Under the pieces are notes generated by a model that was given only the letters and a program-made list of their open reading frames with translations, did not search any database and was not told the DNA's origin. The position numbers were made by a program, and so were the translations under genes. Shown piece by piece: positions 1,168 to 36,341 of a stretch of 43,321 bases of DNA; the first letter of the stretch is position 1; the number at the start of each line of letters is the position of its first letter. Source of the DNA: Planctomycetaceae bacterium (lineage in GTDB: Bacteria; Planctomycetota; Planctomycetia; Planctomycetales; Planctomycetaceae); contig JAKFVC010000117.1 of the NCBI GenBank assembly GCA_021732415.1, positions 1 through 43,321 of the forward strand, given 5' to 3'.

Positions 1168-1335
1168 AAGCCCCAACGGGGCGTACTAGGCCAGCCCAGG
1201 GCATCGCCCTGGGTTTAAGACCAAATACACGAATTAAGCCCTGAAGGGGCGCGCCCCTTCAGGGCTTAATTTTTATAAATGGCCTTCGTCCCAGGGCGTT
1301 GCCCTGGGCTGGCCTAGTACGCCCCGTTGGGGCTT
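1168..1335. repeat. Nested palindromic element, family A copy 1
   Basis: Outer arms 1168-1213 and 1290-1335 (46 nt each) are reverse complements with one mismatch. Each arm is itself made of two short palindromes (AGCCCCAACGGGGC and CCCAGGGCATCGCCCTGGG). Between them sits a perfect 36-bp palindrome at 1234-1269 (half-site TTAAGCCCTGAAGGGGCG). Close copies are found at 24483-24678 and 31147-31333. The element separates the convergent TadC-like and enolase-superfamily genes. Confidence 0.9.
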
Positions 1336-22999: not shown

Positions 23000-24442
23000 T
23001 CAATGAGCCGGCGGGGGGCTGTTCTGGAACGCCCGGTTGCGATACAGGAAGTCGATGATGTTCCCCTCATGCGGCTGTAACCAGTTGAGTCCCACCGTCC
23101 TCACCGCACCGATATTTAACCGGTCGATGTTGGTCGCATCCAGCAATTCCTGAGAGAACTTCGGATCCTTCGTGATGGCCGTGCAGACCAGCGTCGACCC
23201 AATCCGCTTGATCATATCCTTCTGCGGGCAATCAACGACCACGACGAAGGGATACATGTACTCAGCCTTCGAGATCTCCGGATCGGGCGACGTACTATGC
23301 AGCACCGTGGGACGCAGATAGTCGCACCGTTCGTGTTGGATCAGACGAGGCCCCCCGCGATACTTCTCGGTGACTTCCGTAACGGCTCCGCCCGCACTGG
23401 TGATCCCCTCGTCGATCTGATTATTCACCGATTCGGCGACACCGGGAATGGTAAACGCAGCGAGCATGGCATTCGGATCGGTCATCGGCAACGGAGCAAT
23501 CGGCCCCAGGCGACGAGCGATCGCATCCGCAATTTCCCGACCATGCCGCGGGGCCCAGATCGCCGAGGCATTGATACACCCGCGGCCACTATTCTTCACC
23601 ACGCTGTCGACCATCAGGTCGATGTGCTGCTCCCAGTTATCGACTTCATCCTCACCAAAGAGGATTTTTGAGAAGCCGGGACCATGGACCTGAACCTTGG
23701 GATTTCCCGCATATTTGTCGATGGTCGCCTGGCTGCCGAAAATCATCGACCGCTGGCAATGCTCCATCACCGCACCGCCGACATCGGTCTTGCCGGGATA
23801 CAACGAGATCGATTCGCGAGGAATGCCGGCCTGGAAGAAGGCTTCCGTCATGCGATACGGAGTCCACGGCTCGGACGAACCGGGCTTCATGACCAGCCCC
23901 ACCTGCAGTGGAATCACCGGCATCCACAGGGTATGCACACCGGGCGAATTCGACGGCAGCACCAACCCGATGACGGGGCTGTTGGCCTGGTAGCTCAGCA
24001 TGACGCCGCGGCTCTCAGTCCCGTAACCCTTGGACAAAATGTCGAACGGCAAACCGCGAGTCAGGGCCTCCAACACTTCGCGCATATGAGTTAGCACGAA
24101 GTAGTTCTTCGACATGTTGGCCTTGCACATGTGCTCGGGCAAACCGGTGGTCGCCGACTGCATGCGGCAGAATTCGGCAGGCGACTGAGTCCCTCCACCG
24201 ATCGGCAGCGTGCCATTCAAGTAGAGTTCAGCGGCCTTCTTCGTGATCTCTATCAATTGATCGATTGAAAACTGCCGGAGGGAATCGCGAGCCCGCTTCG
24301 CCTGCCGCATGTCCATTGCCACTTGACCAGCATTTGCCTGGTGAATCTTCGCGACTTGCTCGCCCGTTTCGAAATGGACAACGTCCGCTTTTTCGATGCT
24401 CTCGTAAACTTTACCCCACCGATAAACAGGCAGCTCGATCAT
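23000..24442 (-). CDS. LuxC-like acyl-CoA reductase / aldehyde dehydrogenase-fold protein
   Basis: A 480-residue aldehyde dehydrogenase-superfamily protein. The ATG at 24440-24442 is chosen because AAGGA lies eight bases before it; the 16 residues further upstream have no support. Cys289 sits in NSGRGCINAS, the usual place of the catalytic thiol, and MIFGSQATID resembles the GS.A nucleotide-binding turn. The usual E.GGK glutamate block is replaced by HGPGFSKI, as expected for acyl-reductases that do not hydrolyse the thioester. Length and the Cys position match LuxC (fatty acyl reductase, about 480 residues, acylated on Cys286 in Vibrio harveyi). The likely reaction is reduction of an activated acyl group to an aldehyde with NAD(P)H. 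The LuxE-like gene precedes it on the same strand. A standard CoA-acylating dehydrogenase is the alternative. Confidence 0.78.
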   Translation of the reverse strand: MIELPVYRWGKVYESIEKADVVHFETGEQVAKIHQANAGQVAMDMRQAKRARDSLRQFSIDQLIEITKKAAELYLNGTLPIGGGTQSPAEFCRMQSATTGLPEHMCKANMSKNYFVLTHMREVLEALTRGLPFDILSKGYGTESRGVMLSYQANSPVIGLVLPSNSPGVHTLWMPVIPLQVGLVMKPGSSEPWTPYRMTEAFFQAGIPRESISLYPGKTDVGGAVMEHCQRSMIFGSQATIDKYAGNPKVQVHGPGFSKILFGEDEVDNWEQHIDLMVDSVVKNSGRGCINASAIWAPRHGREIADAIARRLGPIAPLPMTDPNAMLAAFTIPGVAESVNNQIDEGITSAGGAVTEVTEKYRGGPRLIQHERCDYLRPTVLHSTSPDPEISKAEYMYPFVVVVDCPQKDMIKRIGSTLVCTAITKDPKFSQELLDATNIDRLNIGAVRTVGLNWLQPHEGNIIDFLYRNRAFQNSPPPAH

Positions 24443-24482
24443 GATTGGTCCTTGGTCCGTTGTTACGAATTGGGAATTCCTC

Positions 24483-24678
24483 AGCCCCAACGGGGCGTAC
24501 TAGGCCAGCCCAGGGCATCGCCCTGGGATTCGGCCCCCAATTCAGACCAAGCCCTGAAGGGGCGAACTAGACGACTCTACGAAAACATCCTAGTTCGCCC
24601 CTTCAGGGCTTGAAATTCGTTTCATCTCGATAACCCAGGGCGATGCCCTGGGCTGGCCTAGCGCGCCCCGTTGGGGCT
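24483..24678. repeat. Nested palindromic element, family A copy 2
   Basis: Outer arms 24483-24527 and 24634-24678 (45 nt, two mismatches) and inner arms 24549-24570 and 24590-24611 (22 nt, perfect; AAGCCCTGAAGGGGCGAACT core). It lies in the 334-base gap between the LuxE-like and LuxC-like genes, which run in the same direction. A weak family B fragment follows near 24745-24770. Confidence 0.92.
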
Positions 24679-24776
24679 TAAGACCGGCATCCTCAACACA
24701 ATGCCTAACCCCGCCCTTACGTCGCAACGTGCAGTCCGCAGACGGAAGGGTCAGAGACCCGTCCCACAGTCGACTA

Positions 24777-25886
24777 CTAGTAGACTCCTACAGTCGTCGT
24801 CTTTGCAAACACGTGGAACGGTCGCGTCCCACTGATGCCGTCCCACGGGTACTTCTCGTGAGGTAGTTCGCGCTCGCCTTCATCACGTTCCATGAAGCCT
24901 GGTACGAACAGTTCCTTGGTCAATGTCGTCAGCTTAACGCGACCTGTTTCGCCGTAGCCGACCAGTTTGTTGTAATCGTCGAACGTCACCACTTCGATCA
25001 CGGCCCGCGGTTGGGGGGCAAAGTACGTAATCTTGTAATTGTCCGCCGGATCGAACGGCTTGCCGCAGGCCAAGCCCATCAGCGTGTTGCCGTAGGTCGG
25101 GGTGATGTAAACATCGGGCCCCAGCAGTTCCTCGCAGCAGAAGCGGTACCACTGCGGGGTGAACTCGGTGCCGCCGGCGAAAATGCCGGTGATGCCGACT
25201 TCAGCGATGCTCGTCCCGTTGTCCATCAGCTTGAGGGCCAACGCTTCCAGCAGCTTGGGGGTGGCAAACGCACACTTGATGTCGTGGCCAGCGGTGAGGA
25301 TCGTCACAGCCTGATCGATCACGTGATCCGCGTACGCCTTCGCTCCGGCGACGTCGCCTTTCTTGAGGAGCTTCACGACCCAGCGGGGGTCCAGATCGAC
25401 GCAGAAACAGATACCGCCGCGGTATTGGGCCAGATGCTCGACAGCCAGACGCAGGCGACGGGGACCGGACGGCCCCAGCATCAACCAGTTGGAACCGCGG
25501 GGAAACGCTTCATCGGGTAGCGTGTCGCTGAAGTTTTCGTAATCAATCCAATGGTCTTCAACCACCAGGCGGCTCTTCGGAATACCCGTTGTACCGCCGG
25601 TTTCGAACACGTAGGCCGGTTTGCCTTTCAACCCCTTCGGCAGCCAGCGGGTCACCGGGCCGCCGCGGAGCCATTCGTCTTCGAATTCCGGGAATTTCTT
25701 CAGATCTTGAAAATTTTTGACCTCGGTCAGCGGGTCGAACTTCAATTCCTTCTTCTTTTCCAGCCAGAAGGGACAACCGGTGGATTCACTGAAATGCCAC
25801 TGAATGGTCTCGTAGACGTGAGCGTCGAGTTGATCTTGGGCTTGCTTCACTTTGGAGGCGAGATCGCCAGTAAACTTCGTAAGCAC
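24777..25886 (-). CDS. LuxE/PaaK-like acyl-adenylating enzyme
   Basis: A 369-residue adenylate-forming enzyme that would activate a carboxylic acid as acyl-AMP. A GTG start at 25884-25886 with GGAG ten bases upstream is chosen; the longest frame runs to 26048 through a family B repeat (translated as RTGRETRPT) and is not credible. The ATP-binding P-loop is TGGTTGIPK at 96-104. PTYGNTLMGL and GYGETGRVKLTTLTKELF correspond to the later adenylation motifs. The protein stops where phenylacetate-CoA ligase would begin its mobile C-terminal domain, and so has the size of LuxE acyl-protein synthetase (about 370-380). The C-terminal acyl-accepting Cys of Vibrio LuxE has no counterpart: there is no Cys in the last 80 residues. 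Transfer to the LuxC-like partner downstream is inference. Confidence 0.78.
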   Translation of the reverse strand: MLTKFTGDLASKVKQAQDQLDAHVYETIQWHFSESTGCPFWLEKKKELKFDPLTEVKNFQDLKKFPEFEDEWLRGGPVTRWLPKGLKGKPAYVFETGGTTGIPKSRLVVEDHWIDYENFSDTLPDEAFPRGSNWLMLGPSGPRRLRLAVEHLAQYRGGICFCVDLDPRWVVKLLKKGDVAGAKAYADHVIDQAVTILTAGHDIKCAFATPKLLEALALKLMDNGTSIAEVGITGIFAGGTEFTPQWYRFCCEELLGPDVYITPTYGNTLMGLACGKPFDPADNYKITYFAPQPRAVIEVVTFDDYNKLVGYGETGRVKLTTLTKELFVPGFMERDEGERELPHEKYPWDGISGTRPFHVFAKTTTVGVY

Positions 25887-25997
25887 GGGGGCAGGTCTCC
25901 AGCAGGCGAGAAAAAATCGGCAGGCCGCCTCGCGGACTACAACCGGTTGGCAGCATTTCATCATAGACAATTGAGGTTGGATTTCAACGCAGTGAAC

Positions 25998-26297: not shown

Positions 26298-26403
26298 TCG
26301 ATCGACGTGGTTGTGTTAACGCGTTGCCTTGGCATAGAATCATCAACCTTCGTTGATTGGTTCACCGCATCTTGAGTCGACACGCTTTGCAGGGGAGAAA
26401 CTC

Positions 26404-28728
26404 ATGAGATTTGGCTGCTGTCTTGCCGCATTGGCGTGTCTGTCGATTCTGGCTCCTGCCGTGCGTGGCGCAGGTCCGTTGCCCAACACTCAACCCCTGA
26501 CCGTTGCAGAACCCCTCGATCAATTCATGATCAATGGGATCAACAAGTTTGCCCTTCGCGAGATCGAAGAATCGGTCGCCAAACGCGAGCAATATTGGAA
26601 GCGAGATTATTCCAGTACCGAAGCCTACGAAAAGAGTGTCGCCCCCAATCGCGCACGATTTCTGGAATGCATCGGTGCCGTTGATGCCCGCATTCCTGCC
26701 GAGGGACTGGAACTCATCACCACGACGTCTCAGGCATCCCTCGTGGGCCGCGCCGAAAAATTCACCATTCACGGAGTCCGCTGGAAGGTCCTTAATGGCA
26801 TCACCGCTGAGGGCCTGCTGTTGCAACCGAATGGCGCTGTGATCGGCCGCATGGTCGCCCTGCCTGATGCCGACACTACTCCTGAAGCCTTCAGTGGTTT
26901 GACCACCGCAGTGCAACCTCAGGCCCAATTGGCCCGACGGTTGGCCGAGCATGGTTATCAAGTCCTCGTTCCCATGTTGATCAGCCGCGAAGATACCTAC
27001 TCGGGCAGTCCGTATGTCCGCTACACCAATCAACCGCACCGCGAATTCCTGTATCGCCAGGCGTTTGAAATGGGCCGGCACATCATCGGTTATGAAGTGC
27101 AAAAAGTCCTCGCGGCCGTTGATCAATTCGAGTTTCTCAACAAGCAAGACGGCAAGCCGCTCCCGATCGGTGTCGCCGGTGTGGGTGAAGGGGGATTGCT
27201 GGCCTTGTACAGCGCAGCGGCCGATACGCGCATCAAATCGGCATACGTCTGCGGCTATTTTCAGGCCCGCGAAGGGGTGTGGGAAGAACCGATCTATCGC
27301 AACGTGTGGAACCTGCTCCGCGAGTTTGGTGATGCCGGGATCGCGAGCCTGATTGCTCCCCGTGCGTTGATCATCGAAGCCACCAGCGTCCCGGAAATCG
27401 CCGGACCTCCGGCTCCTCACGATGGCCGCGGTCCCGGTGCCGCACCCGGCAAGATCACAACCAATGTGCTGGCCTCGGTCCGCAAGGAATATGACCGAGC
27501 CCTGCCCCACTTCGAGAAGCTAAAAGTCCCGACGCAAATCGTCCTCGTCTCCAGTGGCGAAGGTGATGGCCAGCCCGGCAGCGCCAAAGCGTTCGCCGCC
27601 GCCCTGCAGACTCTGGCCGGTCCGAAGGAAGTGGCCGCCGACAGTGCGGCCCCGACTCTGGTGAAAGCCGCCTGGGGGACGGAAACACGGCAAAAGCGAC
27701 AGTTCGACGAGATGAATGAATTCACCCAAGTGCTTCTGCGACGTTCTGCTCGTGTGCGAGATACGCTGTGGTCGAAGGTCGACCGCAAGAACCAGGAAAC
27801 GTGGGCCAAGACGGCCCCCGCCATGCGCGAACATGTCTGGCAAGAGTTGTTCGGTAAACTGCCCGATTCCACGATGCCGCTCAATCCCCGTTCACGCCAG
27901 GTGCTCGACGAACCCGGCTATGTGGGCTACGAAGTGATGCTGGACGTTTATCCCGACGTCGTCGCCTCCGGAATTCTGCTGCTGCCAAAGGATCTCAAGC
28001 CGGGAGAAAAACGTCCGGTCGTCGTCTGTCAGCACGGCCTGGAAGGGGTACCCATCGACACGATCAGTCGGACCGTCGAGGGCTTCAACTACTACAGTGC
28101 GTTCGCCCACGAACTGGCCAATCGCGGCTTCATCACTTATGCACCGCAGAACCCCTATCGCGGCCGCGACAATTTCCGCACCATTCAACGCAAGTCGAAT
28201 CCGATGAAGCGGTCGCTCTTCAGCTACATCATTCCGCAGCATGCCCGCACGCTGGAATGGTTGTCGGGTTTGCCGAACGTCGATCCCGAACGCATTGCGT
28301 TCTACGGTCTCTCGTACGGCGGCAAGACGGCCGTGCGTGTGCCGACCATGCTCGATAAATACTGCCTCTCGATCTGTTCGGCCGACTATAATGAATGGGT
28401 CGTGAAGAACACGACAACGGAAGCCCCCTACAGCTACGTCTTCACCAACGAATACGAAATCTTCGAATGGAACATGGGGCACGTGGCCAACTACGCCGAG
28501 CTCTCCAACTTGATGACCCCGCGCCCTTTCATGGTCGAACGCGGTCACTTTGACGGCGTCGCCCCTGACGAGTGGGTCGCCTGGGAATACTCCAAAGTCC
28601 GCCGCCACTACGATCTATTGGGCCTCGGCGACAAGACCGAAATGGAAACCTTCACCGGCCCCCACAAGATCAATGGCGTCGGGACCTACGACTTCCTGCA
28701 CAAGCATTTGAAGTGGCCGAAACGCTAA
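26404..28728 (+). CDS. Exported tandem alpha/beta-hydrolase (acetyl xylan esterase/dienelactone hydrolase-like)
   Basis: A 774-residue protein with ATG 26404, a GGGGAG ribosome site just before it and a leader (MRFGCCLAALACLSILAPA, cleavage about residue 22). It holds two alpha/beta-hydrolase copies. The C-terminal copy (about 490-774) is complete: RPVVVCQHGLEGVP oxyanion strand, nucleophile Ser637 in FYGLSYGGKT, an acid near Asp717 or Asp722 and His754 (TGPHKI). The N-terminal copy (about 105-405) keeps the strand order, but its nucleophile elbow reads GVAGVGEGGLL, with Gly261 where Ser should be, so it is probably inactive. Related planctomycete proteins are often annotated as acetyl xylan esterases acting on plant or algal polysaccharide esters; the substrate here is inferred only. 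It converges on the TPR gene across a perfect hairpin. Confidence 0.87.
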   Translation: MRFGCCLAALACLSILAPAVRGAGPLPNTQPLTVAEPLDQFMINGINKFALREIEESVAKREQYWKRDYSSTEAYEKSVAPNRARFLECIGAVDARIPAEGLELITTTSQASLVGRAEKFTIHGVRWKVLNGITAEGLLLQPNGAVIGRMVALPDADTTPEAFSGLTTAVQPQAQLARRLAEHGYQVLVPMLISREDTYSGSPYVRYTNQPHREFLYRQAFEMGRHIIGYEVQKVLAAVDQFEFLNKQDGKPLPIGVAGVGEGGLLALYSAAADTRIKSAYVCGYFQAREGVWEEPIYRNVWNLLREFGDAGIASLIAPRALIIEATSVPEIAGPPAPHDGRGPGAAPGKITTNVLASVRKEYDRALPHFEKLKVPTQIVLVSSGEGDGQPGSAKAFAAALQTLAGPKEVAADSAAPTLVKAAWGTETRQKRQFDEMNEFTQVLLRRSARVRDTLWSKVDRKNQETWAKTAPAMREHVWQELFGKLPDSTMPLNPRSRQVLDEPGYVGYEVMLDVYPDVVASGILLLPKDLKPGEKRPVVVCQHGLEGVPIDTISRTVEGFNYYSAFAHELANRGFITYAPQNPYRGRDNFRTIQRKSNPMKRSLFSYIIPQHARTLEWLSGLPNVDPERIAFYGLSYGGKTAVRVPTMLDKYCLSICSADYNEWVVKNTTTEAPYSYVFTNEYEIFEWNMGHVANYAELSNLMTPRPFMVERGHFDGVAPDEWVAWEYSKVRRHYDLLGLGDKTEMETFTGPHKINGVGTYDFLHKHLKWPKR

Positions 28729-28861: not shown

Positions 28862-30919
28862 CTACGCTACCGGTTGCGAGTAGTCGCGATAAGATTTTTC
28901 TTCCACCAACCGCGAGCCCAGCAGTTGATTGATCTGCCGCTTCAACGCCGCGCGCTTATCGTTCTGGTGGTAAACCGATCGCGCCAGTGCGACAAATTTT
29001 GTGCTGAAATCCTGTTCGCGTTCGCAATCACGAATGTCGTCTTCGATCACCCAGAGGGCTTCATTCACCGATTTCAACTGAGCAATCAAATCGGCCAATC
29101 GCGTTGCGGCCTGACCGGTGGCTGCCTCGCGGACGGGCGCGAAGGCTGTAGTCAGAGTCTCCAGTTCTTGCCGCACGTTCGCCAACTTGGCACGATCTTC
29201 TATCCGAGCTGACTTGATCTCCAGGATCGTGATCTTGTCGACGAGTTCGCCGATTGACGTCTCCACGAAGACGGAACTCGTTCCGGCCGCCGCATTGGGA
29301 ATTGCACGTTCGGCCCGAGATGCCGACAGAAGCTGCGTTCCCTCTGTCTGACGTGCCGCCAGTTCGTGTTTGAGTTCCTCGGCGATGCGTTCGAAGAGTC
29401 CATCCCAATCACCGATTCGCTCCTGACGGAACAGCCGCAGGTTGGGATACCAGGCGGTCGTTTTGAAATCTCCAAACCACCGCCAGTCAGGAATAAATGG
29501 AACCGCCACCCACACCGGAACGCCCAAGCCGCCAGCCAGATGTCCGATCGAGGTATCCGCCGTGATCACCAGATCGAGGTTCCGCATCACGGCCGCTGTG
29601 TCCATAAAGGGCCCGGTCTCGGTATCCAGCCGGCCTTTGAAATCATCAATCTGCAATTGCCCCTGCATCTCGGCGATTTGTTCAATCCCCTGGCCACATT
29701 GCAGGCTATAGAGCTGAATGCCGTCGACCTTGCCCAGCGGGGCAAAGTGTTTCAAGGCAATGGAACGCCCGATTCCTCCTTTATTGGACATGCTCCCCTG
29801 CCAGACGATGCCGATCTTGAAGGCGGCAGTCCGACTCAGCTTCGCCTTCCACGTCGCAACCAGTTCCGGATCCGCAAACAGATACGGGACCTCCGCAGGA
29901 ATCGTATCCAGCGTGGTCCCCAGGATTCCCGGCAGACTGAGGAGCGGCGAATAGACGTCGAACGGTGGCAGATCGCCACCCGGCACGGGGACAAATTCGT
30001 CGATGCCAGCACAGCGACTCAAGATCGGCAGTAACGTCTTATTACAAGCCACGACCACACGACCACCACGCGCCTTCACCAGCGGCGCATACCGCATGAA
30101 CTGCAGCTTGTCTCCGAAGCCTTGCTCACCATAGAGCACGATCGTCCGCCCATTCAGCGGCGAACCGTCCCAGCGCGGCTTATGAAACTCCGGCAATTCC
30201 GGCCGGCCGCAGACAAACCGCCATTCATATTCGGCCCAGCCCTCTTTCAGATTTCCCGTCAGCAGCAAGGCGGTCGCCAGGCTCAAATGGGCCTCGGCAT
30301 AGTCTGGCTTCAGACGTATCGCCTGCCGGTACGAAGCAATCGAATCTTCGATCCGCCCGAGGTCGTTGAGCACATTCGCCAGATTGTTATGAGCGTCCGC
30401 AAAGTTGGGATTCAACTGCAATGCACGGCGATAACTGTCGACAGCAGCATCGAGATTTCTCTGCTCGCGGTAGATCACTCCCAAGTGATTATGGGCGATC
30501 GGATTGTCTGGCTGCAGACGGAGTGCCTGTTGAAAACTGGCGAGGGCCAATTCCAGTTGCCCTTGATCCTTGAACGCAATCCCCAGGTTCAGACGGGCTT
30601 CTACAAAATCGGGCTTGAGCTGCAGCGCCTGCTGGTACGCGTTGACGGCATCCGCAATCTGACCCAACGACGTATAGACATTTCCCAAATTGCCGTAGAA
30701 GACAGCCGCCTTGGGATTCAACTTGATCGCGCGGTTGATGCAGTCCGCCGCCACCGCATGCCGGCCCGCCTGCGATGAGGCCACCCCGAGCAAGTGCCAG
30801 GCGTCAATATGGTTGGGGTCGGTCTGGAGGATCTGCCGGTATAATTGCTCGGCCTGATCCAAGCGACCAGCTTGATGATGTTGAACGGCCGACGCCAGAA
30901 TTTGAGAGGTGGTTGCCAT
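28862..30919 (-). CDS. TPR - GT-B glycosyltransferase-like - DUF6165 fusion protein
   Basis: A 685-residue cytoplasmic-looking protein. The ATG at 30917-30919 starts the first TPR helix; a GTG ten codons earlier is possible but lies inside the promoter. Residues about 6-240 are seven TPR repeats (for example NPNFADAHNNLANVLNDLG). Residues about 255-520 form the C-terminal GT-B-like domain found in TPR-type planctomycete and proteobacterial proteins: YGEQGFGDKLQFMRYAPLVK, KIGIVWQGS, ITADTSIGHLAGGLGVPVWV with His460, and PDWRWFGD. Residues about 549-685 match DUF6165 (ETSIGELVDKITILEIKSAR, then coiled helices). DUF6165 is usually a separate small protein near glycosyltransferases, so the fusion suggests it helps a sugar transfer step. 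Donor and acceptor are unknown. Confidence 0.88.
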   Translation of the reverse strand: MATTSQILASAVQHHQAGRLDQAEQLYRQILQTDPNHIDAWHLLGVASSQAGRHAVAADCINRAIKLNPKAAVFYGNLGNVYTSLGQIADAVNAYQQALQLKPDFVEARLNLGIAFKDQGQLELALASFQQALRLQPDNPIAHNHLGVIYREQRNLDAAVDSYRRALQLNPNFADAHNNLANVLNDLGRIEDSIASYRQAIRLKPDYAEAHLSLATALLLTGNLKEGWAEYEWRFVCGRPELPEFHKPRWDGSPLNGRTIVLYGEQGFGDKLQFMRYAPLVKARGGRVVVACNKTLLPILSRCAGIDEFVPVPGGDLPPFDVYSPLLSLPGILGTTLDTIPAEVPYLFADPELVATWKAKLSRTAAFKIGIVWQGSMSNKGGIGRSIALKHFAPLGKVDGIQLYSLQCGQGIEQIAEMQGQLQIDDFKGRLDTETGPFMDTAAVMRNLDLVITADTSIGHLAGGLGVPVWVAVPFIPDWRWFGDFKTTAWYPNLRLFRQERIGDWDGLFERIAEELKHELAARQTEGTQLLSASRAERAIPNAAAGTSSVFVETSIGELVDKITILEIKSARIEDRAKLANVRQELETLTTAFAPVREAATGQAATRLADLIAQLKSVNEALWVIEDDIRDCEREQDFSTKFVALARSVYHQNDKRAALKRQINQLLGSRLVEEKSYRDYSQPVA

Positions 30920-30926
30920 GCGGCCG

Positions 30927-30954
30927 ATTATACAACCCCGCTGAAACACGACAA
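30927..30954 (-). promoter_or_regulatory. Near-consensus sigma-70 promoter of the TPR-GT-DUF6165 gene
   Basis: On the minus strand, TTGTCG (30949-30954) and a perfect TATAAT (30927-30932) are separated by 16 bases. Only seven bases (30920-30926) lie between the -10 box and the ATG, so transcription should start at or within one or two bases of the start codon. No Shine-Dalgarno sequence precedes the ATG, which fits a leaderless message. Confidence 0.65.
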
Positions 30955-31146: not shown

Positions 31147-31333
31147 AAGCCCCAACGGGGCAAACTAGGCCAGCCGAGGGCATCGCCCTGGGTTACAGGT
31201 CAAATTATTGAATAAGAGCCCTGAAGGGGCGTACTACGCCTATGCGAGTACGCCCCTTCAGGGCTTTGAATCCTCTCTTGCGACTTTACCCAGGGCGATG
31301 CCCTGGGCTGGCCTAGTTCGCCCCTTTGGGGCT
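31147..31333. repeat. Nested palindromic element, family A copy 3
   Basis: Outer arms 31147-31192 and 31289-31333 show the family A plan with a few more changes (GGCAAACTAGGCCAGCCGAG in the left arm). The inner pair is about 31217-31232 (AGCCCTGAAGGGGCGT) and 31249-31266. It fills most of the 538-base gap upstream of the TPR gene and downstream of the PhyH gene; 30955-31146 holds only one weak family I arm near 31040. Confidence 0.88.
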
Positions 31334-32398: not shown

Positions 32399-34666
32399 CT
32401 ACTTCTTCGCCAGGATCTCATGCAACACGCGCGGGGGAGACATCGGCAACTGCGTCATACGAACTCCCACTGCGTTGTAAATCGCATTGGCGAGGGCCGC
32501 CGGCGGTGGCACGATGGGGACTTCGCCGACGCCACGGACGCCGTAGGGGTGACCGGGGTTCGGGACTTCGACGATGATCGCTTCAATCATCGGCAGGTCG
32601 AGGCACGTCGGCATGCGATAGTCCAGGAACGTCGAGTTTCGCATCACGCCGCTCTGGTCGTAGAAATACTCTTCGTTCAAACCCCAGCCGATACCCTGCA
32701 CGGCCCCGCCCTGAATCTGTCCTTCGACATACGCGGGGTGAATCGCCGTCCCCACATCCTGCGACGCGGTGTAACGCAGCACGGTCACCTTGCCGGTATC
32801 CGGATCGACTTCCACGTCCACACAGTGAGTCGCAAACGCACCACCCGGGCACTGCGGATCGGCCGACCCACGACCAACGATTGGTTCGCCGTGTTTGCAG
32901 GTCTGAACTACCAGGTCCTTGAAGCTAATCTGCTTACCACCTGGCCCGCTGACTCCGCCGTTTTCATACTTCACTTGATCGGCAGGGACCTCCCACAGGG
33001 TCGCCGCGCGTTGACACATCTGGCGAGCAATATCGAGTCCGGCTTCATACGCAGCCCAACCGGTCGCGAAGGTCACGCGACTGCCGCCGGTGACGTCGGT
33101 GTAGCCCACGCTGTCGGTGTCGCCCACGCTCGGCATGACTTGATCGACGGGGATGCCCAGCGTTTCGGCGAACTGCATCGCAATGCCGGTCCGCGAGCCA
33201 CCAATGTCAGTCGAACCTTCCACCAACCCCACGCTGCCATCGAAATTAACCGTCGCGGTGACGGCCGATTTGAGACCACAATTGAACCAGAAACCTGTCG
33301 CTATCCCGCGGCCCCGATTCTTGCCCGTCAGCGGCGTCTTCCAGTGATCGCTATTCTTAATCGCTTCGACTGATTCAATCATGCCAATCCGCGGATAGAC
33401 GGGCCCATCAATGCGACGAGTTCCCTCAACTGCGGCGTTCTTCAGGCGGAACTCCATCGAACACATTTTGAGCTGTTCGCAGATTTCGTCGATGACTGTT
33501 TCCGTCGCCATTGCGGCATTTGTCGCGCCTGGCGCCCGATATGCGTTGGTATGCGGCTTGTTGACGCAAACGTCAAAGCCATCGACCTTGCCGTTGGGCA
33601 CGTCGTAGCAGGCAAACACGCACATCGCGCCGGCACCGATCGGCGAGCCCGGATAGCCACCCGCTTCATACGCCATGTAGGCTTCCGCAGCGGTAATCTT
33701 GCCGTTGGCATCGGCACCCATCTTAACGCGAATATAGGAACCGGGCGTCGGGCCCGTCCCTTCGAAACAGTCAGCCCGATTCATGATGATCTTGACCGGC
33801 CGGCCCGTCTTCTTCGACAGTATGGCCGCGACCGGTTCCAGGTACACCGAGACCTTGCCGCCGAAGCCGCCGCCGATTTCCATCGGAATGACTTTGACGT
33901 TGCCGACCGGGATATGACACAGTTCCGCCACTTGCTGGCGGGCGGTGAATGACCCCTGAGTGCTGCACCAGACTGTCACCTTGCCGTCAGAATTCCACAT
34001 CGCCGTGCCGTTGTGGGGCTCGATGTATCCCTGATGAACGGTCGCCGTGTTGAACTCGCGTTCGACGATCACCTTGGCCGCTTTGAAGCCCGCTTCGAGA
34101 TCCCCTTTTTCGAATCGGAAGTGCTTCGCGACATTGCTGAGCTGCTTCGTTTCTTCACCCAGCGAATTCGTGTAAACGTTGTTGTGCAGCAAGGGAGCAT
34201 CGGGCTTCATCGCTTCGGGGGCGGTGAGCACCGGCTTCAAAACTTCGTACTCAACCTTGATCAGCTTGCACGCGTCTTCGGCGATATTCACCGTATCGGC
34301 CGCCACCGCCGCCACCGCATGGCCGCGATACAGGGCCTTGGGCCCGGCGAGCACATTGTGCCGCAAGTGCTGCAGGTTGATGGCCCCTTCGCCGAGTTCC
34401 GCGATCTTGTTTTCCGCATCGGGAAAATCATCCACGGTCACCACAGCATGCACGCCGGGCAATGCCAGCGCGGCGGAATAATCAATCGACTTGATGTTCG
34501 CATGCGCGTGCGGGCTGCGGAGCATCACGCCGAACAACATGCCGGTCAGCCGAATGTCGCCGCCGTACTTGGCCCTACCGGTAACTTTATCCACGCCATC
34601 GTGGCGGATCGGGCGAGTCCCAATGACGGTGTATTTCTTGCCGGGGTTGGCTTCGGTTGTCGACAT
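32399..34666 (-). CDS. Molybdenum hydroxylase large subunit (xanthine dehydrogenase family)
   Basis: A 755-residue molybdopterin-cytosine or -guanine dinucleotide-binding subunit of a xanthine-oxidase-type hydroxylase. The N-terminal ald_Xan domain (DKVTGRAKYGGDIRLTGML) is followed by the Mo-binding halves: GGFGGKVSVYLEPVAAILSK, NAYRAPGATNAA and a C-terminal GVRGVGEVPIVPPPAALANA with the catalytic Glu in VGE. The active loop AYRAPG is the xanthine-oxidase type and differs from the AYRCSFR of form I CO dehydrogenase, so CO oxidation is unlikely. The likely job is hydroxylation of a heterocycle, purine or aldehyde; the substrate is unknown. It is the last gene of the FAD - 2Fe-2S - Mo operon; the 215-base gap upstream holds repeats. 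Confidence 0.95.
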   Translation of the reverse strand: MSTTEANPGKKYTVIGTRPIRHDGVDKVTGRAKYGGDIRLTGMLFGVMLRSPHAHANIKSIDYSAALALPGVHAVVTVDDFPDAENKIAELGEGAINLQHLRHNVLAGPKALYRGHAVAAVAADTVNIAEDACKLIKVEYEVLKPVLTAPEAMKPDAPLLHNNVYTNSLGEETKQLSNVAKHFRFEKGDLEAGFKAAKVIVEREFNTATVHQGYIEPHNGTAMWNSDGKVTVWCSTQGSFTARQQVAELCHIPVGNVKVIPMEIGGGFGGKVSVYLEPVAAILSKKTGRPVKIIMNRADCFEGTGPTPGSYIRVKMGADANGKITAAEAYMAYEAGGYPGSPIGAGAMCVFACYDVPNGKVDGFDVCVNKPHTNAYRAPGATNAAMATETVIDEICEQLKMCSMEFRLKNAAVEGTRRIDGPVYPRIGMIESVEAIKNSDHWKTPLTGKNRGRGIATGFWFNCGLKSAVTATVNFDGSVGLVEGSTDIGGSRTGIAMQFAETLGIPVDQVMPSVGDTDSVGYTDVTGGSRVTFATGWAAYEAGLDIARQMCQRAATLWEVPADQVKYENGGVSGPGGKQISFKDLVVQTCKHGEPIVGRGSADPQCPGGAFATHCVDVEVDPDTGKVTVLRYTASQDVGTAIHPAYVEGQIQGGAVQGIGWGLNEEYFYDQSGVMRNSTFLDYRMPTCLDLPMIEAIIVEVPNPGHPYGVRGVGEVPIVPPPAALANAIYNAVGVRMTQLPMSPPRVLHEILAKK

Positions 34667-34708
34667 ATTGGTGTTCTCGCGGAACGGGTGTCAGTTGTAA
34701 TTCTCAGG

Positions 34709-34855
34709 CGAGCGTCCGGCGTAAGCCGGATGGTTTTTATACAGTTTCGAACATCTTGAAATGCGTAACCAAACCAAGCATGCTACACAAAAAACTTTGT
34801 CTTCCTTCGCGCCCTTCGTGACCTTCTGTTCAAATCCTTATAAACAGAAGGTCAC
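34709..34855. repeat. Lone family H arm and a 13-bp hairpin inside the hydroxylase operon
   Basis: Bases 34709-34736 match the left arm of the 16643-16786 element (GGCGAGCGTCCGGCGTAAGC core) without a partner. A stem of 13 bp, 34818-34830 with 34843-34855 (GTGACCTTCTGTT), follows, with weaker pairing outside it. Both lie between the 2Fe-2S and Mo subunit genes. Confidence 0.78.
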
Positions 34856-34881
34856 AAAGAACACGAAGAGATTTTTGTTAA

Positions 34882-35379
34882 TCAAACTTTTGCTTCGCTG
34901 CAGCAGCCACTCATCTTGCCGGCCGCATCTTGGACTGCTCGGACGATCTTGTCGTAGCCCGTGCAGCGACAAAGATTACCTGCCAGATAGAAGCGGATGT
35001 CGTGTTCGCTGGGATTGGGATTCTCGGCGAGCAGCGACTTGGCCTGCATGATGAAGCCCGGGGTGCAAATTCCGCATTGCAGAGCGGCATTGTTCAGAAA
35101 GGAATCCTGCAGCGGGTGCAGTTGGCCGTTGCAAGCGACCCCTTCAATGGTCTCCACCGTGGCCCCGTCGGCTTCCACCGCGAGCACCAGGCAACTGACC
35201 ACCGGCCGGCCATCGAGATGCACCGTGCAGGCGCCGCAGTTGCCGTTCGAGCAACCTTCCTTCGTACCCGTCATATCGAGACTGTCACGCAGAACTTCCA
35301 GCAGCGTTTGACGCGGCTCACACAGAAAATCTTTCTGCGTGCCGTTGATCGTAGTGCTGACGATGCGTTTCTTGGCCAT
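34882..35379 (-). CDS. Molybdenum hydroxylase 2Fe-2S subunit
   Basis: A 165-residue iron-sulfur subunit that passes electrons from the Mo centre to FAD. The plant-ferredoxin-type cluster is bound by CSNGNCGACTVHLDG and a following Cys (VVSCLVLA); the second cluster domain has CGICTPGFIM and LCRCTGYDKIV. All eight Cys expected for the family are present. ATG 35377-35379 has AGGA nine bases upstream. It sits between the FAD and Mo subunit genes on the same strand, in the order seen in CoxM-S-L type operons. The final CCSEAKV tail has an extra Cys pair whose role is unclear. Confidence 0.96.
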   Translation of the reverse strand: MAKKRIVSTTINGTQKDFLCEPRQTLLEVLRDSLDMTGTKEGCSNGNCGACTVHLDGRPVVSCLVLAVEADGATVETIEGVACNGQLHPLQDSFLNNAALQCGICTPGFIMQAKSLLAENPNPSEHDIRFYLAGNLCRCTGYDKIVRAVQDAAGKMSGCCSEAKV

Positions 35380-35410
35380 GGGATGATTTCCTGAAAAACT
35401 CAGCGTGATC

Positions 35411-35472
35411 GTAGCCCGACTCTCTAAGTCGGAAGAATTAACGCGCGAACCCGACTCAAAGAGTCGGGCTAC
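35411..35472. repeat. Inverted repeat that supplies the stop codon of the FAD subunit gene
   Basis: Arms 35411-35432 and 35451-35472 (22 nt, two mismatches; GTAGCCCGACTCTCTAAGTC). The right arm overlaps 35469-35471, the TAG stop of the FAD subunit gene. The related lone palindrome is at about 26146-26166. Confidence 0.87.
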
Positions 35473-36341
35473 GTCGCGCGAGCCCGTTCGACCGCCTGTT
35501 GGATGACGCGAGCTGTCAGGACTCCGGTGACATGCTTCCGGAATTCGATCGTCCCGCGCATATCATCAATCGGTGTCGCAATAGCCCGAGCGGCCTCTGC
35601 CGCCTTCTGAATGGTCGCTTCCGAGACTGCCTGACCAATCAATGCCTTCGCAGCGGCGTCTGCGACCAACGGCTTGGCGGCCACAGCCCCTAACGCAATC
35701 TTCGCCGCCACAAAATTCTGGCCAGCGGCGTCGAGCGTCACCGACACCCCCACGCCGACAACCGCGATGTCCATTTCGTTGCGCGGGATGAATCGCTGAT
35801 AAGCCGATCCACTGTGGGCAGCTCGAGCGGGCAGCTTGATCTCCACGACGAACTCACCCCGTTCGAGGATGTTTTTGCCGGGCCCCGTACAAAAAGTATC
35901 GACCGAGACTTCACGCGTTCCTTTCGGACCAGCAATCACCACAATCGCGCCAAGAGCGATCAGCGAGGGAGTCGAATCAGCGGCGGGACCCGAGTTACAC
36001 AGGTTGCCCCCGACACTCGCCCGGCTTTGGATTTGAATGCCGCCGATGATCGTCGCGCTGTCGGTCAATGCGGAATAGGCAGCGGTGATTTGCGCATCGT
36101 GATACAGGCGATAACACGGGACCGCCGCACCGATTCGCAAGCCTGTGGTGGAAAAATCGATCGCGGTCAATTCCGGGATCTTTTTAATATCGACCACCAA
36201 ATCCGGGGTCAGACGGCCGACTCGGACCTGATCAATGAGGTCCGTTCCCCCCGCCATCGGCCGGGCCGCACCATTGTGCGATTGCAGCAACTGGACCGCC
36301 TCCGCGACCGTAGTCGGCGCGGCGTAGTCAAAATCACGCAT
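35469..36341 (-). CDS. Molybdenum hydroxylase FAD-binding subunit
   Basis: A 290-residue CoxM/XdhB-type flavoprotein subunit that takes electrons from the 2Fe-2S subunit to the final acceptor. The FAD motifs are PMAGGTDLIDQVRVG (about 31-45) and GGNLCNSGPAADSTPSLIALGA (in part: NLCNSGPAADSTP, about 115-127), and the C-terminal CO dehydrogenase flavoprotein domain (VGVSVTLDAAGQNFVAAKIA onwards) is complete. ATG 36339-36341 has AAAGG ten bases before it. It is the first gene of the three-gene unit. Its stop codon lies in a repeat arm, so the natural end may have been set by an insertion of the repeat (inference). Confidence 0.95.
   Translation of the reverse strand: MRDFDYAAPTTVAEAVQLLQSHNGAARPMAGGTDLIDQVRVGRLTPDLVVDIKKIPELTAIDFSTTGLRIGAAVPCYRLYHDAQITAAYSALTDSATIIGGIQIQSRASVGGNLCNSGPAADSTPSLIALGAIVVIAGPKGTREVSVDTFCTGPGKNILERGEFVVEIKLPARAAHSGSAYQRFIPRNEMDIAVVGVGVSVTLDAAGQNFVAAKIALGAVAAKPLVADAAAKALIGQAVSEATIQKAAEAARAIATPIDDMRGTIEFRKHVTGVLTARVIQQAVERARAT

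Follow-up and report, generated by a model that had tools for sequence, protein, structure and literature searches.

What does a gene pair that resembles the LuxE synthetase and LuxC reductase do in a planctomycete with no luciferase nearby? The question arises at positions 23,000 to 25,886 of a 43,321-nucleotide stretch of Planctomycetaceae bacterium DNA (assembly GCA_021732415.1, contig JAKFVC010000117.1; the whole stretch is called the window below). A first-pass annotation read the two genes there as a LuxE-like and LuxC-like pair without luxAB or luxD, forming a free-standing fatty-acid reductase. With modest confidence, the pair is interpreted here as a carboxylic acid reductase of two components that depends on ATP and NAD(P)H, similar in kind to EhpF/EhpG and GriC/GriD; its acid is likely a chorismate-derived hydroxybenzoate.

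The gene pair and its sequence features

Two minus-strand open reading frames (ORFs) were confirmed at the lengths originally given, 369 and 480 amino acids (aa). The first encodes an EhpF-like adenylating protein (24777..25886), with an inferred GTG start codon at 25886 and a stop at 24777; the frame is still open further upstream. The second encodes an EhpG-like reductase of the aldehyde dehydrogenase (ALDH) fold (23000..24442), running from an ATG at 24442 to a stop at 23000. Both frames are beyond chance, with relatives at E<=1e-60 in 239 (EhpF-like) and 242 (ALDH) of 297 genomes of the class and no inner stops in the displayed match rows. Pfam, NCBIfam and PDB sequence searches used slightly longer frames (24780-25967 and 23003-24490).

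In the adenylating protein, the ATP P-loop motif FETGGTTGIPK occupies residues 94-104 (25575..25607, minus strand), and residues 94-101, 103 and 104 are invariant in an alignment of 34 planctomycete sequences. The last four residues, VGVY, are also invariant in these rows, and GVY terminates 13 of the 14 rows of a wider alignment, the fourteenth being clipped by the chosen coordinates. Cysteines stand at positions 38, 160, 162, 205, 250, 251 and 274 of 369. None follows residue 274, and the protein indeed lacks the C-terminal acyl-accepting cysteine, as the first-pass annotation had remarked.

In the ALDH, Cys289 (codon 23576..23578, minus strand) sits in NSGRGCINAS and is the predicted acyl-accepting nucleophile. 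It is the one cysteine invariant in a 14-row alignment that includes the sequence from the window. Glu394 (codon 23261..23263, minus strand), the ALDH motif glutamate, which in other ALDHs has a role in cofactor binding, is likewise invariant in 14/14 rows. The place of the general-base glutamate of the ELGGKSP motif is taken by HGPGFSK (residues 253-259; 23666..23686, minus strand), so that His253 stands in the window protein. With the motif aligned by eye, this position holds His in nine rows, Gln in two, and Leu, Arg and Tyr in one each; Glu occurs in 0/14. An ordinary ALDH of locus L039 has ELGGKSP with its glutamate.

The genes are separated by a 334-nt intergenic gap (24443..24776). A palindromic intergenic element of about 120-150 nt is present in three copies in the window (1193-1310, 24507-24654 and 31172-31309), and the copy at 24507-24654 lies in this gap. 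The arms of the element, CCCAGGGCGATGCCCTGGGCT and TTCGCCCCTTCAGGGCTT, have six and seven matches against 0 and 0.03 expected.

The adenylating protein is a stand-alone domain related to EhpF

Family profiles place the 369-aa protein only broadly. Pfam gives a weak AMP-binding match (9e-4, below cut-off), and the best named NCBIfam family is F390 synthetase, at 30 bits against a cut-off of 459; no PaaK family appears in the NCBIfam results at E<=1. In a phmmer search of the PDB, EhpF was the sole strong match (2e-43), the next being at 0.18. A structure model was built on the 34 planctomycete sequences, with a predicted local distance difference test score (pLDDT) of 87.2. The EhpF entries came first in comparisons of this model with known structures (Foldseek 6e-29; VIA Z 31.5 to 3hgv, root-mean-square deviation (rmsd) 3.5, 330 aligned residues, 31% identity). 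PaaK-type and related ligases followed at Z 26.8 to 24.0 and 13-18% identity (PaaK1: Z 26.8, 14%), and GH3 and aryl-acid adenylating enzymes were found below these, at Z 17.9 and lower. Going by their titles, several of the ligases closest in structure (PaaK, NatL2, ClxA) have aryl or arylacetic acids as ligands. A LuxE entry is absent among the structure rows shown, an absence that does not exclude likeness to LuxE.

The protein has no ANL C-terminal domain: it is 369 aa long, its model aligns up to EhpF residue 354, and PF14535, which represents that domain, does not match at E<=1. The same profile matches a PaaK-type neighbour in locus L059 at 1e-15. The adenylating protein of the window is a stand-alone N-terminal ANL domain.

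The ALDH partner groups with EhpG-type proteins

Pfam assigns the 480-aa protein to the ALDH family (PF00171, 9e-20, above cut-off). Its best named NCBIfam family is the CoA-acylating methylmalonate-semialdehyde dehydrogenase (MMSDH; 3.6e-11), at 42 bits against a cut-off of 448. In blastp comparisons it scored 107-147 bits (E 1e-28 to 1e-42) against five partners of EhpF-like proteins, and 56 and 47 bits against the two ordinary ALDHs returned from its own genome. By these scores the window ALDH is closer to the EhpG-type partners than to those two ordinary ALDHs. The LuxC profile does not match it, nor two other planctomycete ALDHs that were scanned.

Distribution and pairing in planctomycetes

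A survey of the class, taken to be Planctomycetia, at E<=1e-60 found the EhpF-like gene in 239/297 genomes and the ALDH in 242/297. When both lists are read together, three genomes (G170, G233, G291) have the ALDH only and the other 239 carry both genes. A match to the EhpF-like protein is lacking in 58 genomes; 20 of these were listed, each of them a member of family f2 or f7. The pair is near-core in Planctomycetia, mostly single-copy and present in about 80% of the sampled genomes (239/297). Across the phylum, an EhpF-like match (E<=1e-20) was detected in 60 of 199 genomes, some of the matches being distant (29-39% identity). Among the best-scoring 80 of 580 GTDB loci, the closest named relatives are from Schlesneria and from other Planctomycetaceae or Planctomycetota metagenome-assembled genomes. 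The gene also occurs in records of Gimesia, Rhodopirellula, Pirellula and Botrimarina, which is the ground for taking the class to be Planctomycetia. No phage match was found for the EhpF-like protein. One contig titled "Gammaproteobacteria bacterium" (L175) carries an EhpF-like gene 71% identical to that of the window; it is probably a mis-binned planctomycete contig.

The first-pass annotation had proposed conserved pairing in other genomes as a test, and such pairing was found. Among 47 relatives that have both genes, the ALDH starts at most 2.5 kb downstream of the EhpF-like gene in 33, as counted from coordinates, G003 being included for a partial match where its contig ends. The same spacing is seen in 69 of the best-scoring 80 GTDB loci, and two of the 11 misses had less than 600 nt of sequence left. 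In the fetched loci, adjacency was seen in 8/13 for the family of the window and in 25/27 for other families. The latter figure is biased, 20 of the 27 loci (L060-L079) having been picked for family spread, many of them via ALDH places; the counts of 33/47 and 69/80 are independent of this selection.

Similar pairs in other organisms

Outside planctomycetes, the EhpF-like protein matched 28 plasmid records, and six neighbourhoods were examined. In five of them (Pantoea, E. coli, Burkholderia, Streptomyces ADI95-16 and Halalkalicoccus) an ALDH gene follows. The E. coli neighbourhood also carries phenazine genes, and the Pantoea neighbourhood is the ehpFG locus. In the sixth, Streptomyces NBC_00316, the match is annotated as an arylcarboxylate reductase.

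The closest known system is EhpF/EhpG of the D-alanylgriseoluteic acid (phenazine) pathway of Pantoea agglomerans, EhpF being the nearest solved relative at about 30% identity. Both systems have a lone adenylating domain without the C-terminal domain and an ALDH gene immediately downstream. Reduction of acyl-AMP by an ALDH was reportedly proposed for EhpF/EhpG by Bera et al. in 2010. The Pantoea pair lies in a plasmid phenazine cluster, whereas the planctomycete pair is found in 239/297 class genomes and is partnered by an iron-containing alcohol dehydrogenase (Fe-ADH), a HemN-like radical-SAM protein and a chorismate-lyase-like protein. No phz-type family was reported among the 26 window ORFs scanned with Pfam (25 of the 56 ORFs of at least 150 aa, plus one of 140 aa). 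Single-chain carboxylic acid reductases (CARs, A-T-R) also convert acids to aldehydes with ATP and NADPH. In contrast to these, the window proteins are separate, no carrier domain was reported, and the reductase has an ALDH fold rather than the short-chain dehydrogenase/reductase fold of CARs.

GriC/GriD of the grixazone pathway of Streptomyces griseus can be likened to the window pair by its described chemistry: an AMP-binding protein makes an acyl-AMP from an aryl acid, and a second protein reduces it. According to PMC10179220, GriC forms the acyl-AMP and GriD then reduces 3-amino-4-hydroxybenzoate to the aldehyde. Two suggestions of the first-pass annotation, a free-standing acid reductase and the passage of acyl-AMP straight to Cys289, fit this logic, and the second appears reasonable by analogy. 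Unlike the planctomycete pair, GriC/GriD is known from a Streptomyces pigment and antibiotic pathway. In Proteus, the same neighbouring genes are annotated ehpF and ehpG (PMC11278526). No description of the planctomycete pair or of such an aromatic metabolite was recognised in listings from the PMC library.

Conserved partner genes

Outside the family of the window, Fe-ADH is the first named gene to follow the ALDH in 19 of 27 loci. It is often followed by a BamB-like propeller gene and a HemN/HutW-like radical-SAM gene (families determined on the L053 copies). In many genomes of the window's own family, Fe-ADH and its companions are found at a second locus. In the window genome, one strand of contig C266 encodes Fe-ADH, the propeller, the HemN-like protein, a 181-aa protein described below as chorismate-lyase-like, and a 4HBT thioesterase.

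Shared presence was surveyed in 59 genomes, the window's own included, at thresholds of E<=1e-10 for the EhpF-like and lyase-like proteins, 1e-30 for the ALDH and 1e-60 for Fe-ADH and the HemN-like protein. The EhpF-like gene was present in 50 genomes, the ALDH in 47, Fe-ADH in 48, the HemN-like gene in 48 and the lyase-like gene in 50. All five are missing from the same eight genomes, seven of f2 and one of f7. The remaining gaps are as follows: the ALDH was not found in G017, G019 and G022 (its first residues are visible at the contig end in locus L032 from G019), Fe-ADH in G003, G013 and G015, the HemN-like gene in G011, G013 and G019, and the lyase-like gene in G014. In five of the 59 genomes (G049, G051, G053, G056, G057) all five genes lie within 12-20 kb of one contig.

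Several other genes occur near members of the set. Lipoyl/GcvH-like, ferredoxin-like and second radical-SAM genes were seen downstream in a few loci of some families, and were not used for substrate inference. In six loci of f3 and f8 (L056, L057, L059, L061, L062, L078), genes for a PaaK-type CoA ligase and a PQQ-propeller precede the EhpF-like gene at distances of up to about 9.5 kb; their family was determined for L059 alone, and they too were left out of the substrate argument. A CmlS/QhpG-like FAD monooxygenase or halogenase-type gene is found near the lyase-like gene in 7/20 loci (L081, L082, L087-L090, L098), an assignment made on L081 alone.

A looser association was seen with two terpenoid-type genes. 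One encodes an SHC-like cyclase and the other a fusion of DUF116 with a polyprenyl synthase, and several loci of f3 and f5 have them in one gene run with Fe-ADH, the HemN-like gene and the lyase-like gene. The SHC-like gene is present in 46/59 genomes and the DUF116-polyprenyl synthase in 49/59. Both are present in G045 (f7), which lacks the whole five-gene set, and both are missing from G016 and G027, where the EhpF-like gene and the ALDH occur. They are therefore not counted as members of the same pathway, and are possibly linked to the five-gene set while standing outside the explanation given here. In the window genome, the DUF116-polyprenyl-synthase fusion adjoins an SHC-like class II cyclase that carries the motif PDADDT (L200 103-4191, contig C243). 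The same cyclase and fusion pair, with a radical-SAM gene alongside, occurs at L202 7873-13084 in an f7 genome that lacks the five-gene set.

A predicted chorismate-lyase fold

The 181-aa protein of the window genome (L080:4678-5220) gave no informative match to phmmer or Pfam as a single sequence, and a profile search with its family retrieved 2nwi at 0.0098. Its model (pLDDT 92) matches 2nwi, a DUF98 protein, at Z 17.2, and E. coli chorismate lyase at Z 11.4 (rmsd 2.9, 142 aligned residues, 20% identity). The protein is thus predicted to have the chorismate-lyase fold, which does not in itself settle its activity. Arg76 and Glu174 are invariant in 19/19 rows of the family and a PLG motif is also conserved; 2nwi can be aligned over the stretches that hold the Arg and the PLG motif. 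Arg76 and Glu174 may correspond to the catalytic Arg and Glu of UbiC.

Proposed pathway

The genes, their family relationships, pairing and shared distribution, and the predicted folds are established by the results above, and from them we infer the catalysis, its direction, the cofactors and the hydroxybenzoate substrate. The EhpF-like protein would adenylate a carboxylate and release or hand over the acyl-AMP without CoA; acyl-AMP is the expected product because the ligase has neither the C-terminal domain nor an acyl-accepting cysteine at its C-terminus. The acyl group of the acyl-AMP would then pass to Cys289 of the ALDH, and hydride transfer from NAD(P)H would reduce the resulting thioester to the aldehyde. 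The general-base glutamate is missing, and therefore thioester hydrolysis would be disfavoured, which fits a reductase. Finally, Fe-ADH, whose gene neighbours that of the ALDH in many relatives and is found at a second locus in the window genome, would reduce the aldehyde to an alcohol. EhpF/EhpG and GriC/GriD provide the analogy for this order of steps.

Most likely the acid is a hydroxybenzoate, with the co-occurring protein of predicted lyase fold producing it from chorismate. The grounds for this choice are the lyase-like neighbour itself and the aryl-acid ligands of several of the ligases closest in structure. The chain would run from chorismate to hydroxybenzoate, hydroxybenzaldehyde and hydroxybenzyl alcohol. 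The fatty acid substrate originally suggested is unsupported, the neighbourhood pointing instead to a chorismate-derived aromatic acid.

A number of observations weigh against this interpretation. In 14 of the 47 relatives having both genes the ALDH is further off or on another contig, some of the assemblies being fragmented, and the plasmid neighbourhood of Streptomyces NBC_00316 has a polyketide synthase in place of an adjoining ALDH. Fe-ADH, the HemN-like gene and the lyase-like gene of the window genome are on another contig (C266, L080). Since all eight shared absences fall in f2 and f7, no more than two or three independent losses may lie behind them. One genome, G011, lacks the EhpF-like, ALDH and HemN-like genes, yet retains Fe-ADH and the lyase-like gene. 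The structures near the adenylating protein are not exclusively those of aryl ligases: among them are the uncharacterised BT_0428 and also HCL, whose substrate is 2-hydroxyisobutyrate. As to the lyase-like family, PF01947 matches only one of its 19 members, at 16.6 bits with a cut-off of 22. UTRA ligand-binding domains share the fold and reach Z 13.0, against 11.4 for the E. coli lyase, and because this match outscores the lyase the protein could bind rather than cleave. Weak LuxC profile matches to EhpG (1e-3) and to the haloarchaeal (6e-3) and Streptomyces (0.026) partners, all below cut-off, count partly on the same side, suggesting that ALDHs of the EhpG group are distantly LuxC-like.

Alternative explanations

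The alternative closest to the proposed pathway keeps the two-component reductase and changes the acid, for example to an isoprenoid or polyketide acid tied to the SHC-like and DUF116 genes. In some loci of f3 and f5 these genes share a run with Fe-ADH, the HemN-like gene and the lyase-like gene, and of the 59 genomes 46 have the SHC-like gene and 49 the DUF116 gene. They follow the five-gene set less closely, however (G045, G016, G027), and aryl acids are the ligands of several, though not all, of the ligases closest in structure; such a substrate is rather unlikely. A conventional CoA route, with an acyl-CoA formed by the ligase and then reduced by a CoA-acylating ALDH, is improbable. The MMSDH match of the ALDH speaks for it, but that match is far below cut-off, and the adenylating protein lacks the C-terminal domain that a PaaK-type protein encoded in L059 possesses. 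In ANL enzymes this domain takes part in thioester formation. Ordinary CoA-acylating ALDH and PaaK profiles had been named in the first-pass annotation as the outcome that would tell against its reading; the best profiles turned out to be the general superfamilies, AMP-binding below cut-off and Aldedh above it, with MMSDH present as described and PaaK absent at E<=1.

A LuxE/LuxC-type fatty acid reductase, supplying fatty aldehydes for lipids or alkanes in the absence of luciferase, is very unlikely. The two systems have in common a two-protein logic of adenylation followed by ALDH-fold reduction, and the lengths, the central ALDH cysteine and the weak LuxC matches of EhpG and two related partners are in its favour. 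However, neither window protein matches PF04443 or PF05893 at E<=1, the synthetase has no C-terminal acyl-accepting cysteine, and the closest structure is clearly that of EhpF, with PaaK-type ligases after it; identity with LuxE/LuxC was rejected on these grounds. The surroundings agree with this rejection: no luciferase or LuxD-type family was reported by Pfam in the 26 window ORFs scanned (E<=1 or E<=1e-5), in keeping with what was first noticed about luxAB and luxD, nor was any lux family seen among the neighbourhood proteins scanned. It is hardly credible that the ALDH is simply an aldehyde-oxidising dehydrogenase next to an unrelated ligase. The fold, the cysteine and Glu394 are kept and the genes are apart in 14/47 relatives, but the pair is closely shared in its distribution, pairing recurs in Gammaproteobacteria, Burkholderia, Streptomyces and a haloarchaeon, and the general-base glutamate is found in 0/14 rows.

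Other genes of the window

A 791-aa protein with two DLH (alpha/beta-hydrolase) stretches is encoded divergently from the pair (26353-28728, plus strand). A long TPR protein (28862-30949, minus strand) has a C-terminal stretch that matches DUF6165 just under cut-off. At 32399-36341 (minus strand) lies a three-gene molybdenum hydroxylase set of the xanthine dehydrogenase/CO dehydrogenase type, with MoCoBD large, [2Fe-2S] and FAD subunits.

Significance for planctomycetes

The pair appears to belong to a conserved pathway, and to resemble an enzyme pair of antibiotic pathways rather than the enzymes of bioluminescence. By itself it is an enzyme of known type, though a diverged one. The unusual part is its near-core status and its conserved partners, which suggest an aromatic pathway. 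Reductases of the EhpF/EhpG and GriC/GriD type are known from antibiotic and pigment clusters, whereas here the pair is near-core and has consistent partner genes. A bolder reading, which we regard as speculative and rather unlikely, is that most Planctomycetia possess an undescribed core pathway from chorismate to hydroxybenzaldehyde or hydroxybenzyl alcohol (by the lyase, the acid reductase and Fe-ADH), with a HemN-like modification, joined to a terpenoid made by the SHC-like and DUF116 proteins. If true, the product would be a meroterpenoid of planctomycetes, shared across the class, in the form of a lipid, a quinone or a pigment. More generally, the near-core pair suggests a widespread planctomycete aromatic metabolite in a phylum of unusual cell biology and lipids.

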